From NCBI GenBank assembly GCA_000526575.1, contig JAGI01000002.1, positions 682,001 through 746,000 of the forward strand: DNA of 64,000 nucleotides. The letters are read 5' to 3'. How positions within the stretch are numbered: position 1 is the stretch's first letter; every line of letters begins with the position of its first letter. The notes under the pieces were generated by a model, which did no database searches, was not told the DNA's origin, and saw nothing but the letters and a program-made list of their open reading frames with translations. The translations under genes were made by a program, and so were the position numbers. Below, piece by piece: positions 1 through 5,901 of the stretch. This DNA comes from Clostridium sp. 12(A) (GTDB lineage Bacteria; Bacillota; Clostridia; Lachnospirales; Lachnospiraceae).

Positions 1-281
1 CCTCCGGCTTTGGACTCTCCATACCAGATGGATATCCTGAGGAATGGGGCGTAATTTCTTTAGAGACTCTGTCTGAGCTGGATCCGGATTATATTATTTT
101 TCAGGACTTTATCTCCGATGCCAAAGGCCTTGTAACGTCCCTGGAAGCGTCTGCTGTATGGAATAATTTAACGGCGGTCAGGAACCAGCAAGTCGTTTAT
201 CTGGATGGCTCTTTGAATACCACTAGTCCTCTTGCCATACAGGCAGCAGCAAAGGGACTGACGGAAGCATTGGTAAGGTAA
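1..281 (+). CDS. Iron-complex/cobalamin-type ABC transporter substrate-binding protein, C-terminal end (partial)
   Basis: The reading frame enters from the left edge (first full codon at base 3) and ends with TAA at 279-281, giving about 92 C-terminal residues. The text contains LDPDYIIF, VWNNLTAVRNQQVVYLD and a final alpha helix, which is the usual end of the Peripla_BP_2 fold of siderophore, heme and vitamin B12 binding lipoproteins. Two FecCD-type permeases follow, so it should deliver a metal chelate to that importer at the outer face of the membrane. The ligand cannot be told from this fragment. A hairpin separates it from the permeases, which often allows more binding protein than permease to be made. 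Confidence 0.8.
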   Translation, partial: SGFGLSIPDGYPEEWGVISLETLSELDPDYIIFQDFISDAKGLVTSLEASAVWNNLTAVRNQQVVYLDGSLNTTSPLAIQAAAKGLTEALVR

Positions 282-301
282 CGGATTTATCATAGGATTT
301 G

Positions 302-338
302 CCGGGCGACATTAAGACAGTGAGTTGCCCGGTTTTTT
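302..338 (+). terminator. Intercistronic hairpin with T-run
   Basis: CCGGGCGAC (302-310) can pair with GTTGCCCGG (324-332), including one G-T pair, and is followed by TTTTTT. It lies between the binding-protein gene and the permease genes and could be a partial terminator that lowers downstream expression. Confidence 0.6.
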
Positions 339-362
339 GTATACTTAATTTAGGAGGGTTCA

Positions 363-1403
363 ATGAAACCGAGCATTTTTACAGAACAAACCGGTTACCA
401 AAAAAATCTTCTGAGGAGGACGTGTCTGGCTCTTTTAGGAGGTCTCTTATTACTTCTTTTCGCCATGACAGTTTCCGTGATGGGCGGGGCGTCAGATATA
501 CCTGTTAAAACCTTGTGGGAGGCAGTGACACAGTATGATGCCGGACAGTCCCAGCATTTAATTATTATGGATTTGCGGCTCCCCAGGGTGGTCACTGGGG
601 CAATGGTTGGAGCTTCCCTTGCTGTAGCCGGGGCAATGATGCAGGCAATGACGAAGAATCCTTTGGCAGATTCCGGGCTTATGGGCCTTAATGCCGGGGC
701 AGTCTTCTCTCTTTCGGTCTGCTTTGCCTTCTTTCCCGGTCTGCGTTATCAGGTGATGATGTGGGCGGCATTTGCTGGAGCAGCCCTGGGAGCAGGCTTA
801 GTTATCGGGGCCTCTGGCATGAGAGGAGGAACAAATGAGCCTGGGAGAATTGTACTGGCAGGAGCTGCGGTCAGTGCGCTACTTACTGCATTCAGCCAGG
901 GAATTGCCTTGCATTATAATGTCTCCCAGAAGGTGATGTTCTGGACAACAGGAGGGACAGCAGGCGCAAACTGGCAGCAGATTAAGGGGATATCTCCCTG
1001 GATTGCAGCAGGACTTATTGGTGCTTTTCTTCTGGCCAGGTCAATATCACTGCTCAGTCTTGGTCAGGAAACCGCAAAAGGACTTGGTGTGAATACCGGG
1101 GCAGTAAATGCAATCTGCTCCTGTTTGGTGTTTATACTTGCAGGTGCAGCGGTATCCATGGCTGGCGGAATTGGATTTGTAGGGCTTATGGTCCCTCATA
1201 TCGTCCGTTATTTTGTTGGTGTGGATTATCGAAGCATTCTTCCTGTCTCCGCCATCTTTGGGGCAGCGTTGGTTGTTGCAGCGGATTTCGGCGCCGGGCT
1301 GGTTAATCCACCCTTTGAAACACCCTTAGGTGCTGTGGTTGCTTTGCTTGGAGGCCCGTTTTTTCTGTATCTGGCATGCAGCCAAAGGAGGCGTAACGTA
1401 TGA
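363..1403 (+). CDS. FecCD-family ABC transporter permease (first of two)
   Basis: A 346-residue multi-pass membrane protein of the BtuC/FecC/FhuB family, which imports iron-siderophores, heme or cobalamin. Family marks visible are LRLPRVVTGAMVGASLAVAGAMMQ near residues 52-75, NPLADSGLMGLNAGA, and near the C-terminus GGIGFVGLMVPHIVR, the segment that contacts the ATPase. The start at 363 follows an AGGAGG-like site with good spacing. Its TGA overlaps the ATG of the second permease by 4 bp, so the two are translationally coupled and probably form a heterodimer. No ATPase gene lies between here and the nitrogenase-like genes; it may be upstream of the window. Confidence 0.93.
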   Translation: MKPSIFTEQTGYQKNLLRRTCLALLGGLLLLLFAMTVSVMGGASDIPVKTLWEAVTQYDAGQSQHLIIMDLRLPRVVTGAMVGASLAVAGAMMQAMTKNPLADSGLMGLNAGAVFSLSVCFAFFPGLRYQVMMWAAFAGAALGAGLVIGASGMRGGTNEPGRIVLAGAAVSALLTAFSQGIALHYNVSQKVMFWTTGGTAGANWQQIKGISPWIAAGLIGAFLLARSISLLSLGQETAKGLGVNTGAVNAICSCLVFILAGAAVSMAGGIGFVGLMVPHIVRYFVGVDYRSILPVSAIFGAALVVAADFGAGLVNPPFETPLGAVVALLGGPFFLYLACSQRRRNV

Positions 1404-2440
1404 ATCCCGTGAGAGAGTTAGTTAGGACTGACAGGGGCAGGCGTCTTTCTCGAAACCATGGAGTGGTGGTGATTTTATGTGGAATACTTCTCTTTACTCT
1501 GCTGGTCAGTATGAATACAGGTCAAATAAGGCTATCTCCATTTGATACGCTCCGCACTCTTTTTGGAGGCGGCAGCGGGAAAGAAAATCTGGTTTTATTT
1601 CAGTTTCGTCTTCCTCGCATCGTGATTTCCATATTGGTGGGGGCAGGTCTTTCTATTTCAGGCCGCATTATACAGGCGGTACTGGGAAATTCCCTTGCAG
1701 ATCCGGGGCTTCTGGGTATTCATGCGGGGGCTGGCTTTGCAGTTACTATGTATGTGCTGTTTCTTGGGACACAGTCCTTTTTGACGGTCTTTACCATGCC
1801 CTTTATTGCCATGGCTGGGGGAGGAGTAACGTCCTTTTTCATATATATTCTGGTGTATGCCAGACGAAGGGAAGCCTCCTCGGTTCGTCTGATTTTAGTG
1901 GGGGTGGCTTTACAGGCAGGCTTAACTGCCCTGACGACGGTAACTGTGGTCAGGCTTGACGAAACCCAATACAATTTTGTGGCTGCCTGGCAGGCAGGGA
2001 CCATATGGGGGGCAAATTGGAACTACGTCATGGCTTTGCTGCCATGGATTTTTATACTTGGATTCTATGTTTGGTCAAAGGCACTTGTTCTTGATGTGTT
2101 AAGTCTGGGAGAAGAAGTGGCTGGCGGACTGGGGATTTCGGTTTCGCGTCAGAGAATCTTTCTTCTTTCGTCAGCAGTAGCGCTGGCTGGTTCTTGCGTG
2201 GCTGTTGGCGGTGGCATTGGCTTTGTGGGACTAATTGCACCCCACCTGGCAGCGAAACTGGTAGGATCGCGTCACCAGATCCTTTTGCCCGTATGTGCCC
2301 TGACAGGGTCAGTACTGGTCCTGGCAGCGGATACCGTAGGAAAAACCATTGTTCAGCCCTCTGAGCTGCCGGCCGGTCTGGTAACAGCCGTTATTGGAGC
2401 ACCTTACTTTTTATATCTGTTAAGGAAGCGCAGAAACTGA
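1400..2440 (+). CDS. FecCD-family ABC transporter permease (second of two)
   Basis: A 346-residue paralogue of the preceding gene, of equal length. It carries the same signatures: FRLPRIVISILVGAGLSISG, NSLADPGLLGIHAGAG and GGIGFVGLIAPHLAAKL. About ten membrane segments are expected, and together with the first permease it should form the transmembrane channel of a metal-chelate importer. It begins inside the stop codon of its neighbour (ATGA). The stop at 2438-2440 is followed by about 110 bp before the NifH-like gene, on the same strand and without a terminator, which suggests co-transcription with the nitrogenase-like genes. Confidence 0.93.
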   Translation: MNPVRELVRTDRGRRLSRNHGVVVILCGILLFTLLVSMNTGQIRLSPFDTLRTLFGGGSGKENLVLFQFRLPRIVISILVGAGLSISGRIIQAVLGNSLADPGLLGIHAGAGFAVTMYVLFLGTQSFLTVFTMPFIAMAGGGVTSFFIYILVYARRREASSVRLILVGVALQAGLTALTTVTVVRLDETQYNFVAAWQAGTIWGANWNYVMALLPWIFILGFYVWSKALVLDVLSLGEEVAGGLGISVSRQRIFLLSSAVALAGSCVAVGGGIGFVGLIAPHLAAKLVGSRHQILLPVCALTGSVLVLAADTVGKTIVQPSELPAGLVTAVIGAPYFLYLLRKRRN

Positions 2441-2549
2441 GTGAAATATGAAATAAGAAATATGGACATAGAGTCTACAATCGACAAGATATATTCTGAG
2501 ATGAAAACAGAATTGAAACAAGGCAGAAGCAAAGAAAGGCAGGAAGAAG

Positions 2550-3308
2550 ATGAAAAAGATCGCAATTTACGGAAAAGGCGGAATTGGAAAATCCACCACA
2601 GTTTCAAATATATCGGCTGCAATGGCTGAAATGGGGAAAACCGTGCTGCAAATAGGCTGTGACCCAAAGGCGGATTCTACAAGGAACTTAACTGGCGGAA
2701 AAAATATTCCCACCGTACTGGATATTTTAAGAGACCAGGGAGATGCGGAGCTTGAGGATTTTGTGGTCAAAAGCAGTACTGGAGTGCTTTGCGTGGAAGC
2801 GGGTGGTCCCGTGCCAGGAATCGGCTGTGCTGGCAGAGGAATCATAACTGCGTTTGAAAAATTGGAAGAGTTAGAGGCCTATGATACATACCGGCCGGAT
2901 GTAGTGCTTTATGACGTGCTTGGAGATGTGGTCTGCGGAGGATTTGCCATGCCCATTCGCGGCGGCTATGCGGATGAGGTGTGTATTGTAACCTCTGGGG
3001 AAATGATGTCCCTTTATGCGGCTTCGAATATTGCTCATGCGGTGAAAAGCTTTGGAAGCCGGGGCTACGCAAGTCTTCGGGGGCTTATATTAAATTCCAA
3101 GAATATTGAGCTGGAAGAGGAGCTGGTTAAAAAAGCAGCCTCTGAAATCGATGCCCCAATCCTTTACCGTCTGCCAAGAGATGGCGCCGTACAACAGGCG
3201 GAGGCAGAAGGAAAGACTGTGATTGAGGCCTTGCCGGATTCTGATATGGCAGAGCATTACCGTTCTTTAGCAAGGCTGTTGCTGGAAGGAGGGCTTGAGG
3301 ATGAATGA
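2550..3308 (+). CDS. NifH-like iron protein (nitrogenase-superfamily ATP-dependent reductase component)
   Basis: A 252-residue protein, slightly shorter than NifH (about 275-295). It has the P-loop [10 protein letters not shown] at residues 7-16, the CDPKADST switch segment at 37-44, and the two cysteines that in this family hold the [4Fe-4S] cluster between the two monomers: Cys93 in GCAGRG and Cys129 in [11 protein letters not shown]. The arginine after the first cysteine is also kept. It should hydrolyse ATP and pass single electrons to the complex made by the next two genes. Overlap of 8 bp with the next gene supports coupling. BchL and CfbC share these motifs, so the family assignment is firm but the substrate is unknown. 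Confidence 0.92.
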
Positions 3309-4551
3309 GCTAAAGCATCTAAAGAGGTTGTCTGCCGTTAAATCCAATGCTGGAATTAAATTTCTAACTCCAGCTGCCTTTCCCGGCAATCATTGCCCCA
3401 TGCACACTGCATTGGCGCTGAGTTCCAATATTAAAGGAATGTCAACCCTATTAATCGGAACGGCAGAATGCGGCAATTACAGCCGCAGCATTATTGAGAA
3501 AAATAAGCCGGAGGATCATACCTTCCACTGGATGTATGTGCTGGATTCCAATGAGGTGGTCTTTGGATGCAGAAAGGGAGTCATGCAGGCTGTTAAGGAA
3601 ATGGATGAAGCTGGAGCAAGGGCGATTATGCTGATTTCCACCTGTGTTCCCGAAGTTATAGGAGAGGATATGGAAGGAATCATTCGGGAGCTGCAGCCCC
3701 AAACAAAAGCCAGACTTAACTATGTGCAAATGCCTCATTTTAAATGCAACAGCTATCCTTCCGGTTTCTATAAAACGCTGGAGTCCTTTGGAGAGATGAT
3801 GAAGCCTATTAAAAAACGCCCGGATGTGGTAAACATTCTGGGCAGAAGCAAAGAAGAGGACCATATTCCAATGCCAGAGCTTTTACAGGCACTGGAAACC
3901 AGAGAAATGACCCTTCGTTATCTGGCACCTAAATCTGATATCACAGATTTTGTCTCCGCACCAGACGGAGCGCTGAATCTCGTGCTTTCCCCTTATATGA
4001 ATCCTCTTGCCAAACGGATGGAAAATCGTTTTGGAGTCCCCTTTGTCAGCGTTCATGAAGTCTATGACGTAGATGGTATTGACTATCTATATCATGACAT
4101 TGCTTCAAAGTTAGGCATTCAGTGGGGAGACGGTTTTCTAAAATCAAGAAAGGCAGCTGCCCATTTGGAGGCAGAAGCAAAAGAAATGGTAAAAGGGCTC
4201 CGCTTTGTCTCGACCCATCGTAACACCTTAATGACACTGCCACTGGCTCATTATCTGTTAAGGCTGGGGATGGAGCCATTGCTGCTTCACATGGAAGAAT
4301 ATTATCCGGATGATAAAAAATGGTCTAATCTTCTTCTGGAACAAGGACAGGATCCCTATCTCTGCCATATGGTAAATGAACCCTCCAATGCAAGAATACT
4401 GGAGGTGATAAGCCCAGATGTTTCTTTTGGAGAGATACCTGGCGGAAATGGGATGATTCCTTGTGTCCCCCACTTAGATGAACTATACGGGCAGGCAGGT
4501 TATGAACGGACAGAATTATTATTAAAAAGACTGATAAACGCTTTCAAATAA
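3301..4551 (+). CDS. Nitrogenase component-1-like protein, NifD/BchN-like subunit
   Basis: A 416-residue protein of the oxidoreductase/nitrogenase component 1 family. Using the ATG at 3301 (AAGGAGGG at 3286-3293, 7-nt spacing) instead of the in-frame TTG at 3295, the cysteines are Cys32 in NHCPMH, Cys57 in AECGNYS and Cys115 in [10 protein letters not shown]. These match the three P-cluster cysteines of NifD by context. No equivalent of the NifD cofactor cysteine is evident in the middle of the protein. It is shorter than NifD (about 480-490) and nearer in size to the dark-operative reductase subunits. It should pair with the next gene product and take electrons from the NifH-like protein. 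Confidence 0.88.
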
Positions 4552-4576
4552 ACCAACAGGTAAGGAGATGATTGAA

Positions 4577-5821
4577 ATGGGATTACATAGATTCAGGCCG
4601 CCTCTTTCCGGAAGAATGGGTACTTTGCGCACCCTTGGATCCATTCGGGGTGCAGCTCTGATTGAATATGGCTGTATGGGACATATGCTGTATAGCCGGG
4701 TGTTTTTAAATCAGGCTGGAGTGGCAGATGGGTGCAGGCTGTACTCGACGCACATTGACGAAACAGATATTTCCATGGGCGATACCAAGCGGCTTAACCG
4801 CACAATTGCTGAAATCGTAGAAAAAGATAAGCCGGAAATCATCTTTTTCCTTCCTTCTTCCGTTCCAACCGTCATTGGAACAGATTTAAATGCAATCTGC
4901 AAGGAACTGCAGCCAGAATATCCGGATATTCCTTTACTCCCATTTGGGGCAGGAGGCTTTCATGTCCATGGATACGAAGGGGTGGAAGAAGCCCTTCTTT
5001 TACTGGCGAAGGAGCTTCCAAAAGAAAGGGAAAAAACGACCCGGCCCAGCTTTAATATCATTGGGTCCTGCGCAGATATGTTTCGCTTTCAGTCAGATGC
5101 AGAAGAAATGGTGAGAATTCTTAAAGGAGCCTTTGGAATAGACCCGGTTTGCGTGATGACATCTCATACCTCGGCAAGCCAGGTAATGGATATGGGAGGA
5201 GCTCATATCAATATAGTGGTCAGAAGAGAAGGAGAAAAGGCGGCAAAATATTTAGAAAAGCGATTTGGCACACCCTATGTGATCGGCAGGCCTTATGGAA
5301 TAGAAGGAACTCTTTCGTGGATTGCAAACATATCAAATATCCTGGGGGTGGAGGCAGACCATGACTTTGTGAACCAGGAAGCCAATAGAGCCAGGAATCA
5401 TTTAAGACCTGCAATGCCTGTTTTAAACCATATGATTCGTTCCCACCCGGCTGAAGCTACGATTTCTCTGGGAGGTCACGCGGATATAGTAAAAGGAATT
5501 CTGGAATATGGTCATAAGGAGCTGTCTTTGTACCGGGGAGACTGCTGGTGTGATAGTCTGGACATGGGAGATGAGGATATACCATACTTCTCAGAGGAGG
5601 AATGGTCCAAAGCAGTGAAAAATCGAAAGAAAGGAATCTTCATGGGAAGTGGAGAAGCTTTAAAATGGGCAGGAAAAGGATTGGAACTTCAAATCAGCAA
5701 TCCGGATGTCAGATGGAGACTAAGTCCTTATGATCCTCCTTTCGTTGGATTTCATGGAGCCATTCATTTGGCAGGATTATGGCTCAATGCTCTGTTAGAG
5801 CAGGAAGAGGAAGAAGAGTAA
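4577..5821 (+). CDS. Nitrogenase component-1-like protein, NifK/BchB-like subunit
   Basis: A 414-residue protein of the same family, second subunit. The ATG at 4577 is preferred because GGAG at 4564-4567 is 9 nt away, whereas the in-frame ATG at 4568 abuts it. Cys33 in IEYGCMGHML matches the first NifK P-cluster cysteine by context, and Cys53 (DGCRLYS) lies nearby. At the third position, where NifK has a TTCMAEVIG-like motif, this protein reads PSSVPTVIG, so Ser95 stands where cysteine is expected. A heterodimer with three cysteines from one subunit and one from the other would suit a single [4Fe-4S] cluster, as in dark protochlorophyllide reductase, but this is inference. It ends the operon. 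Confidence 0.85.
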   Translation: MGLHRFRPPLSGRMGTLRTLGSIRGAALIEYGCMGHMLYSRVFLNQAGVADGCRLYSTHIDETDISMGDTKRLNRTIAEIVEKDKPEIIFFLPSSVPTVIGTDLNAICKELQPEYPDIPLLPFGAGGFHVHGYEGVEEALLLLAKELPKEREKTTRPSFNIIGSCADMFRFQSDAEEMVRILKGAFGIDPVCVMTSHTSASQVMDMGGAHINIVVRREGEKAAKYLEKRFGTPYVIGRPYGIEGTLSWIANISNILGVEADHDFVNQEANRARNHLRPAMPVLNHMIRSHPAEATISLGGHADIVKGILEYGHKELSLYRGDCWCDSLDMGDEDIPYFSEEEWSKAVKNRKKGIFMGSGEALKWAGKGLELQISNPDVRWRLSPYDPPFVGFHGAIHLAGLWLNALLEQEEEEE

Positions 5822-5823
5822 TA

Positions 5824-5872
5824 AAAGAGGCGGCACCGGCAGGGTAAAATGGACCCATGGTTCCGCCTCTTT
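5824..5872 (+). terminator. Terminator of the nitrogenase-like operon
   Basis: AAAGAGGCGG (5824-5833) pairs perfectly with CCGCCTCTTT (5863-5872), with weaker pairing further in. The T-run is short, so it may act in both directions. Confidence 0.65.
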
Positions 5873-5901
5873 CATATATATTGACTTATAGAAGAAATAA
5901 A

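Follow-up and report, generated by a model that had tools for sequence, protein, structure and literature searches.

Which reaction is catalyzed by a nitrogenase-like reductase whose genes are lined up with those of a metal-chelate importer? This question is raised by an operon at the beginning of a 64,000-nucleotide stretch of Clostridium sp. 12(A) DNA (G000:C2:682001-746000, in the following the window; the genome comprises 4.6 Mb), in which the genes of an AraC-type regulator, a substrate-binding protein, permease A, permease B, a NifH-like Fe protein (H) and two component-1-like subunits of the D- and K-type (D and K) follow each other. It is proposed here, with a probability of about one half, that this operon encodes a reductase which works anaerobically, is driven by ATP and releases the iron of imported ferric siderophores. 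The observations from which this proposal starts are the gene order, the importer class as judged by sequence, the absent cofactor ligands, the linkage of reductase and importer, the match between enzyme clade and importer, and Fur-type sites in relatives.

A nitrogenase-like reductase without cofactor ligands

Of six P-cluster cysteines, three remain in the reductase, all on the D-type subunit (C34, C59 and C117, counted from the TTG start, in an alignment with Nif and Bch rows), and they are kept in all 15 rows of the window's clade, save L024, a late-starting frame without the first two. In the K-type subunit, the same kind of alignment shows no Cys at the three P-cluster positions: the first is an alignment gap, and the window K has no Cys before residue 36; the second, a Cys in nitrogenases and an Asp in BchB, is occupied by His39 in 15 of 15 window-clade rows; and the third is Ser, Ala or Thr. 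Of the 15 rows, 12 have Cys36. As to the ligands of the iron-molybdenum cofactor (FeMoco), no D row has a Cys in the Cys275 column or in the neighboring column, and none has a His in the His442 column; a His one residue beyond this column occurs in the window, L017, L019, L023 and L048, where it is not conserved and the alignment is gappy. Since only the three D-subunit cysteines remain, D and K likely hold a single [4Fe-4S] cluster like that of the dark-operative protochlorophyllide oxidoreductase (DPOR), and the substrate would bind directly in the component-1 cavity. Predicted models of both subunits have the component-1 fold, with a mean predicted local distance difference test score of 87.3 for D and 81.0 for K. 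The K model is closest to the DPOR chains 8vqi_D and 8vqh_B (template modeling score 0.79, 21% identity; 8vqh_B is named subunit B), and for the D model the best DPOR, AnfK, NifN and Mar chains tie.

None of the reductase subunits passes an NCBIfam cut-off. The NifH-like protein has its highest score with the CfbC model (337.4, cut-off 402) and reaches 334.5 with the nifH model (cut-off 394.35), and as a CfbC that is encoded beside a true CfbD in L087 scores 297.4 and thus likewise stays below the cut-off, little can be concluded from the CfbC score by itself. The matches of D and K to several component-1 models are weak and lie far below the cut-offs for NifD/NifK and for the V- and Fe-forms; with the CfbD model the two subunits obtain 21.4 and 24.8 (cut-off 268.4), and the BchL, BchN and BchB cut-offs are missed by the window proteins as well.

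The trees covered Nif, Vnf, Bch and CfbD rows and contained no Mar, Isr, Nfa or Anf sequences. In a 71-row component-1 tree, the window D and K each fall into a clade of 15 rows (support 100/100) that contains none of the Nif, Vnf, Bch and CfbD rows; the Bch, CfbD and some other branches are long, and the deeper placement is therefore unsure. Later 31-row trees for each subunit gave window clades of 16 rows with supports of 98/98 for D and 99/99 for K. In the H tree, the window protein is found with the same relatives (20 rows, 95/87), support for the deep forks is weak, and the CfbC row lies on a long branch among rows of a sister clade that is described below. In the phylogeny that the first-pass annotation had asked for, the window enzyme is not placed inside the Nif, Vnf, Bch or CfbD rows covered, and the earlier view of a nitrogenase-like reductase that does not fix nitrogen is supported.

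Linkage of the reductase to FecCD-type importers

Relatives were collected by their K protein, blind to neighboring genes. This yielded 17 loci in species genomes, 6 positives among 200 genomes of the family, 14 among 398 of the phylum, 21 among 25 in a genus search with a loose cut-off that also caught nif-type rows, and 11 among 391 genomes of the class in a search with a sister-clade profile; the family, phylum, genus and class counts all include the window genome, and two further loci came from plasmids. The linkage was counted in 51 loci in which H, D and K are all present and at least 5.6 kb of upstream sequence is available. Eleven of 53 distinct loci had been dropped for contigs that were too short or for missing or unrecognized H, D or K (L022, L026, L032, L033, L039, L041, L044, L050, L065, L066 and L067), L051-L053 are repeat records of L016, L029 and L031, and L099 was excluded from the second set of ten for its different arrangement. 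Close kin are included among the counted loci, for example L017/L018, L027/L028, L055-L057, L060-L063 and L008/L068.

A FecCD permease is encoded near H, D and K in 46 of the 51 loci, 43 times on the same strand and three times on the opposite strand, which supports the tie between reductase and importer that the first-pass annotation had suggested for a survey across genomes. With 16 FecCD matches in the 4.6 Mb of the window genome as the background rate, chance adjacency would be a matter of a few per cent (rough estimate). The usual order of the genes is AraC, binding protein, permease A, permease B, ATPase, H, D and K, and of the 27 window-clade loci whose permeases lie on the same strand, 22 have a FecE-type ATPase gene. 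The window genome encodes elsewhere, in another FecBCDE-type locus, a FecE that is 74% identical to that of L020, and this ATPase could serve both importers.

Siderophore-type importers and a heme-linked sister clade

The importer of the window consists of a binding protein and two FecCD permeases, as do FecBCDE importers of ferric siderophores. Its binding protein has 42 matches among solved structures at an E-value of 0.001, led by ferri-enterobactin and Fe-citrate binders, and no heme or B12 binder is found by name among the 42, some names being generic. The best NCBIfam model for this protein is of the FepB-type (85.8 bits, below the cut-off), and the ten binding proteins of the window's clade that were scanned have FepB-, Fe-dicitrate- or FhuD-type models as best match, in no case IsdE. 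Two FecCD permeases are encoded in 27 of 27 window-clade loci with same-strand permeases, in the stretches seen, and no riboswitch, including the cobalamin type, was detected in the eight loci scanned. In Sporomusa termitida, the operon is located on a plasmid, accompanied by a gene annotated as TonB-dependent siderophore receptor and by that of a PF00756 esterase which is closest to an IroE-like hydrolase, and the binding protein is closest to 2why, an iron-uptake system binding protein which we take to be FeuA. Another PF00756 esterase gene adjoins K on the opposite strand in Scatolibacter (L023). By these comparisons, the importer of the window's clade looks like a ferric-siderophore type.

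The sister clade has a different arrangement, with H, binding protein, one permease, ATPase, D and K in this order. One permease is found in each of the 16 loci outside the window's clade with same-strand permeases, in the stretches seen, among them L045, L081 and L097, whose position is at the margin of the sister clade or outside it. IsdE is the best model for eight of ten non-window binding proteins scanned (68-247 bits, all below the cut-off of 298.65), the exceptions being L045 and L081, and when two such proteins were compared with solved structures, IsdE and Lmo2184, the latter presumably heme-linked, were the best matches. At L036, a protein with two NEAT domains and a sortase are encoded next to H. 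In a search of 30 genomes for NEAT domains, strong matches (above 60 bits) occurred only in G505, G799 and G820, all within about 10 kb of a sister-clade K gene, so that NEAT linkage exists in 3 of 14 sister-clade genomes. Nine of the other 11 have no NEAT match and two (G854, G105) have weak matches elsewhere; window-clade genomes G144 and G406 also have weak matches elsewhere in the genome, and no match exists in the window genome. The class of the importer thus goes with the clade of the enzyme.

Isd-like heme loci with H, D and K are seen at L036 (3974-12954), L090 (670-9213) and L091 (3974-15230), where NEAT proteins, a heme-type binding protein, a permease and an ATPase are encoded; L036 also has a sortase, and L090 a frame resembling it.

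Fur-type sites were sought with a 7-1-7 consensus and up to two mismatches. Upstream of operon genes, 15 Fur-box-like sites fall within 18,797 positions, against 3 within the 46,597 positions that precede other genes, and none of 139 permuted palindromes reached 15, the largest count being 7. The enrichment shrinks with looser matching (20 versus 11 at three mismatches). The scan omitted 11 near-duplicates as well as L026, L033, L039, L041, L050 and L065-L067, and as it counted L008 twice, its 40 loci are 39 distinct ones and the position count is slightly high. The divergent transporter unit that adjoins H, D and K in the Paenibacillus loci L017 (3481-5776) and L018 (3427-5846) encodes a luciferase-like monooxygenase, and a Fur-box-like site lies upstream of H that is perfect in L017 and has one mismatch in L018.

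Proposed iron release and alternative functions

If the proposal is right, the operon would be an iron-acquisition unit in which the AraC-type regulator controls the FecBCD importer, and this importer would bring a ferric siderophore, perhaps that of another organism, into the cell with the help of a transport ATPase that is probably borrowed from another FecBCDE system. The NifH-like protein would hydrolyze ATP and hand single low-potential electrons to a putative D2K2 heterotetramer, each DK pair of which would contain one cluster, probably of the [4Fe-4S] type, held by the three D-subunit cysteines and His39 or Cys36 of K. Without a FeMo-type cofactor, the ferric chelate would bind in the cavity that is used by protochlorophyllide in DPOR and may be reduced there, whereupon Fe(II) would leave the siderophore. 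Ferric catecholates have potentials far below those of ordinary ferredoxins, and such low potentials would justify an ATP-gated electron delivery. A tentative extension, possible rather than probable, is a general family for anaerobic iron release, with the window branch reducing ferric siderophores and the sister branch replacing heme oxygenase in Isd-like operons, where heme would be reduced so that iron is released without oxygen. How strict anaerobes release iron from tight chelates and open heme without oxygen is only partly known, and a nitrogenase-type machine for either job would, if true, represent a new reaction class of the superfamily, explain what an orphan group noted long ago is for, and be relevant to the origin of nitrogenase from metal-chelate-handling enzymes.

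Several points weigh against siderophore reduction. Five of the 51 loci (L019, L031, L058, L096 and L098) have no permease nearby, and the gene of the importer ATPase is missing in the window operon as well as in L016, L068, L023 and L029, a gap that the first-pass annotation did not mention. The binding proteins of the window's clade reach no NCBIfam cut-off, nine of the ten match the IsdE model weakly (26-53 bits), and the Sporomusa protein has a weak match to Lmo2184 (25.5 bits), which serves as a heme marker elsewhere in this analysis. Esterases are known from two loci only, no systematic search for them having been made. A Fur-type site with at most two mismatches was found in only 9 of 39 distinct loci, in which both clades are represented, and the window operon and L016 have no such site at up to four mismatches. 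The match of clade and importer could rest on one ancient event. An ATP-driven reductase moreover needs a reason, as the known reductase FhuF works without ATP, and the only one offered here is the low potential of ferric catecholates.

The strongest rival is a reduction of the ligand itself, in which the organic part of the imported compound, for example a siderophore backbone or an unknown metallophore, would be reduced, with the chelator destroyed and the iron released. The characterized FeMoco-free relatives DPOR, chlorophyllide oxidoreductase and CfbCD reduce a bound organic ring (for DPOR and CfbCD this is also stated in passages of the literature), and the PF00756 esterases belong to a family that includes ligand-cleaving siderophore esterases, but the sequence gives no preference for a ring or bond over a metal as the target, and we consider this unlikely for the window enzyme. 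A NifEN-like scaffold that couples metal import to metal-cofactor assembly, as was proposed for co-located ATP-binding cassette (ABC) systems in passages of Dos Santos et al. 2012 (PMC3464626), would agree with the finding that chains containing NifE are the top match of both the K and the D profile in a search of solved structures. It is nevertheless improbable: no recurring gene for enzyme maturation was noticed in the gene maps, in which most flanking frames are unannotated, a partnership with heme importers and NEAT proteins does not point to a scaffold, and conserved FeMoco ligands are missing, not all of which a scaffold would require.

The first-pass annotation had favored an enzyme that reduces an imported metal chelate or tetrapyrrole. 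Its metal-chelate importer is upheld by the FecCD linkage, whereas a tetrapyrrole or corrinoid as substrate suits the window's clade less well and is here regarded as quite improbable, since the binding proteins best match siderophore binders, the eight scanned loci have no cobalamin riboswitch and the window genome has no NEAT match. The DPOR-like fold of K, the top score of H with the CfbC model and the place of CfbC, on its long branch, among the sister-clade H rows speak in its favor, as does the tie of the sister clade to heme-type importers, and it is this sister clade that the tetrapyrrole half of the earlier reading fits. An alternative nitrogenase or a Mar- or Isr-type reductase of sulfur compounds would share the superfamily and the NifH-like partner, but D has no FeMoco-type Cys, K has no cysteines at the P-cluster positions, no radical S-adenosylmethionine (SAM) gene was seen in the operon on inspection of the translated genes, and Mar, according to passages of the literature, uses Cys270, His429 and a P-cluster, which makes such an enzyme extremely improbable here.

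Relation to known nitrogenase-like systems

The basic observation has a precedent: NifEN-like genes that lie downstream of NifH and of an ABC ATPase are described for Clostridium botulinum and Alkaliphilus in passages of Dos Santos et al. 2012 (PMC3464626). The E-like subunit of that group has three P-cluster cysteines, the N-like subunit none, and FeMoco ligands are absent, according to the same passages. The window is similar to this Group IV set in that a NifH-like gene is followed by two adjacent component-1-like genes near ABC genes, with three cysteines in the D/E-like subunit and none at those positions in the K/N-like one, a likeness drawn from gene order and cysteines and not from tree placement in their light-blue clade. 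The group differs in that an ABC ATPase gene lies just upstream of the NifH-like gene, which is missing in the window, and the passages name no substrate class, whereas a siderophore-type importer and a sister clade with a heme-type importer are described here. New beyond that work are the split into siderophore- and heme-linked clades, the supporting neighbors, the Fur-type sites and the loss of the ATPase. No siderophore- or heme-linked nitrogenase-like enzyme was found in the open-access literature searched, which covered top results and left most subscription papers outside its scope.

Like the window system, DPOR (BchLNB) consists of an Fe protein and two component-1 subunits without FeMoco, and the K model is nearest to BchB. 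In DPOR, the cysteines come from one subunit and an Asp occupies the matching position of the other, where the window has His; the ligand pattern is compatible with an inter-subunit [4Fe-4S] cluster as in DPOR. The window proteins remain under the Bch cut-offs, form well-supported clades without BchN/BchB in a tree whose long Bch branches leave the placement unsure, are linked to an importer, and have no chlorophyll genes in their operon. CfbCD belongs to Group IV like the window enzyme, and its CfbC model is the best one for the NifH-like protein, but the window has two different component-1 subunits instead of one, stays under both Cfb cut-offs, and has no F430 genes in the operon. Mar (MarHDK) and Isr (IsrHDK) are non-fixing nitrogenase-like enzymes as well; both have radical SAM partners, and Mar has ligands for a P-cluster, of which the window keeps only the three D-subunit cysteines, and for an [Fe8S9C] cofactor. 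Isr needs a nearby ABC importer, as stated in passages of PMC11423573, but that importer is of the sulfonate type, unlike that of the window. Mo, V and Fe nitrogenases have Cys275 and His442 in the D subunit, both of which are absent in the window D. The ferric-siderophore reductases FhuF and SIP share the proposed job of freeing iron from imported ferric siderophores, but they are unrelated proteins that work without a nitrogenase-type Fe protein or ATP (see passages of PMC8068687).

Organization of the operon in the window

All six genes in the first 5.8 kb lie on the plus strand where the first-pass annotation had placed them (Table 1); the gene of the AraC-type regulator is on the same strand upstream of the window start, as is the start of the binding-protein gene. 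Pfam supports every member of this one-directional run with scores above its own cut-offs (FecCD 301.5 and 303.6 bits for the two permeases, Oxidored_nitro 229 and 180.5 bits for the two component-1-like subunits). The reported overlaps amount to 4 bases between the permease genes and, depending on the start of D, to 8 or 14 bases between the NifH-like and D genes. The stretch from permease B to the NifH-like gene contains no unusual hairpin (z -0.74), in agreement with the earlier statement that no strong terminator follows the permeases, and the hairpins are found instead before permease A, where the structure may lower the expression of the downstream genes, and after K. No FecE remnant was recognized by eye in the gap between permease B and the NifH-like gene.

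Table 1. Features of the operon region, in window positions unless a locus is named
Feature	Position	Strand	Remarks
3' end of substrate-binding protein gene	1..281	+	Peripla_BP_2, Pfam 35.5 bits; ferric-siderophore type
Full binding-protein gene	L008:9325-10281		starts 676 bases upstream of the window; only its tail lies inside
Terminator-type hairpin with T run, between binding protein and permease A	290..345	+	-21.1 kcal/mol, z -4.5
FecCD-family permease A	363..1403	+	Pfam FecCD
FecCD-family permease B	1400..2440	+	Pfam FecCD
Gap at the site of the FecE-type ATPase gene of most relatives	2441..2549	+
NifH-like Fe protein, 252 amino acids	2550..3308	+	Fer4_NifH 320.9 bits; P-loop and cluster cysteines Cys93, Cys129
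Component-1-like D-type subunit	3301..4551	+	start ATG 3301 or TTG 3295; Oxidored_nitro
Component-1-like K-type subunit	4568..5821	+	Oxidored_nitro; closest fold BchB of DPOR
Hairpin after K-type gene, likely operon terminator	5815..5885	+	-27 kcal/mol, z -4.3

A tRNA-Leu is encoded on the opposite strand beyond the hairpin after K. The absence of nifB, nifE and nifN is correct for the surroundings of the operon, but a nif cluster is present on another contig of the same genome (L009, C3:555001-575000), with nifH, two open reading frames in the position of nifI, nifD, nifK, nifE and nifN-B, the names being assigned by eye from order and similarity. It has four component-1 matches and a NifH match of 431.5 bits, and is adjoined by modABC-like and split homocitrate-synthase-like genes, so that the host may fix nitrogen independently of the window operon.

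Other arrangements among the relatives

In L034, L054, L060, L061 and L063, an ABC exporter-type frame of 574-607 amino acids lies between the binding protein and permease A, its domains being confirmed by Pfam for L034 and L060 only. The Methanoplasma locus L085 (4317-6608) has a frame of 763 amino acids in which NifH-like and component-1-like parts are fused, near FecCD-type and ATPase genes; fusions of this kind are mentioned in passages of Dos Santos et al. 2012 (PMC3464626). For a distant H/D/K set at L045 (1-10030), a different substrate is hinted at by its neighbors, namely an ABC importer, a DUF4198 protein and two methyltransferases. At L099 (81-11682), six consecutive component-1-like frames occur together with one NifH-like gene and genes that are, by similarity, those of an ABC importer.

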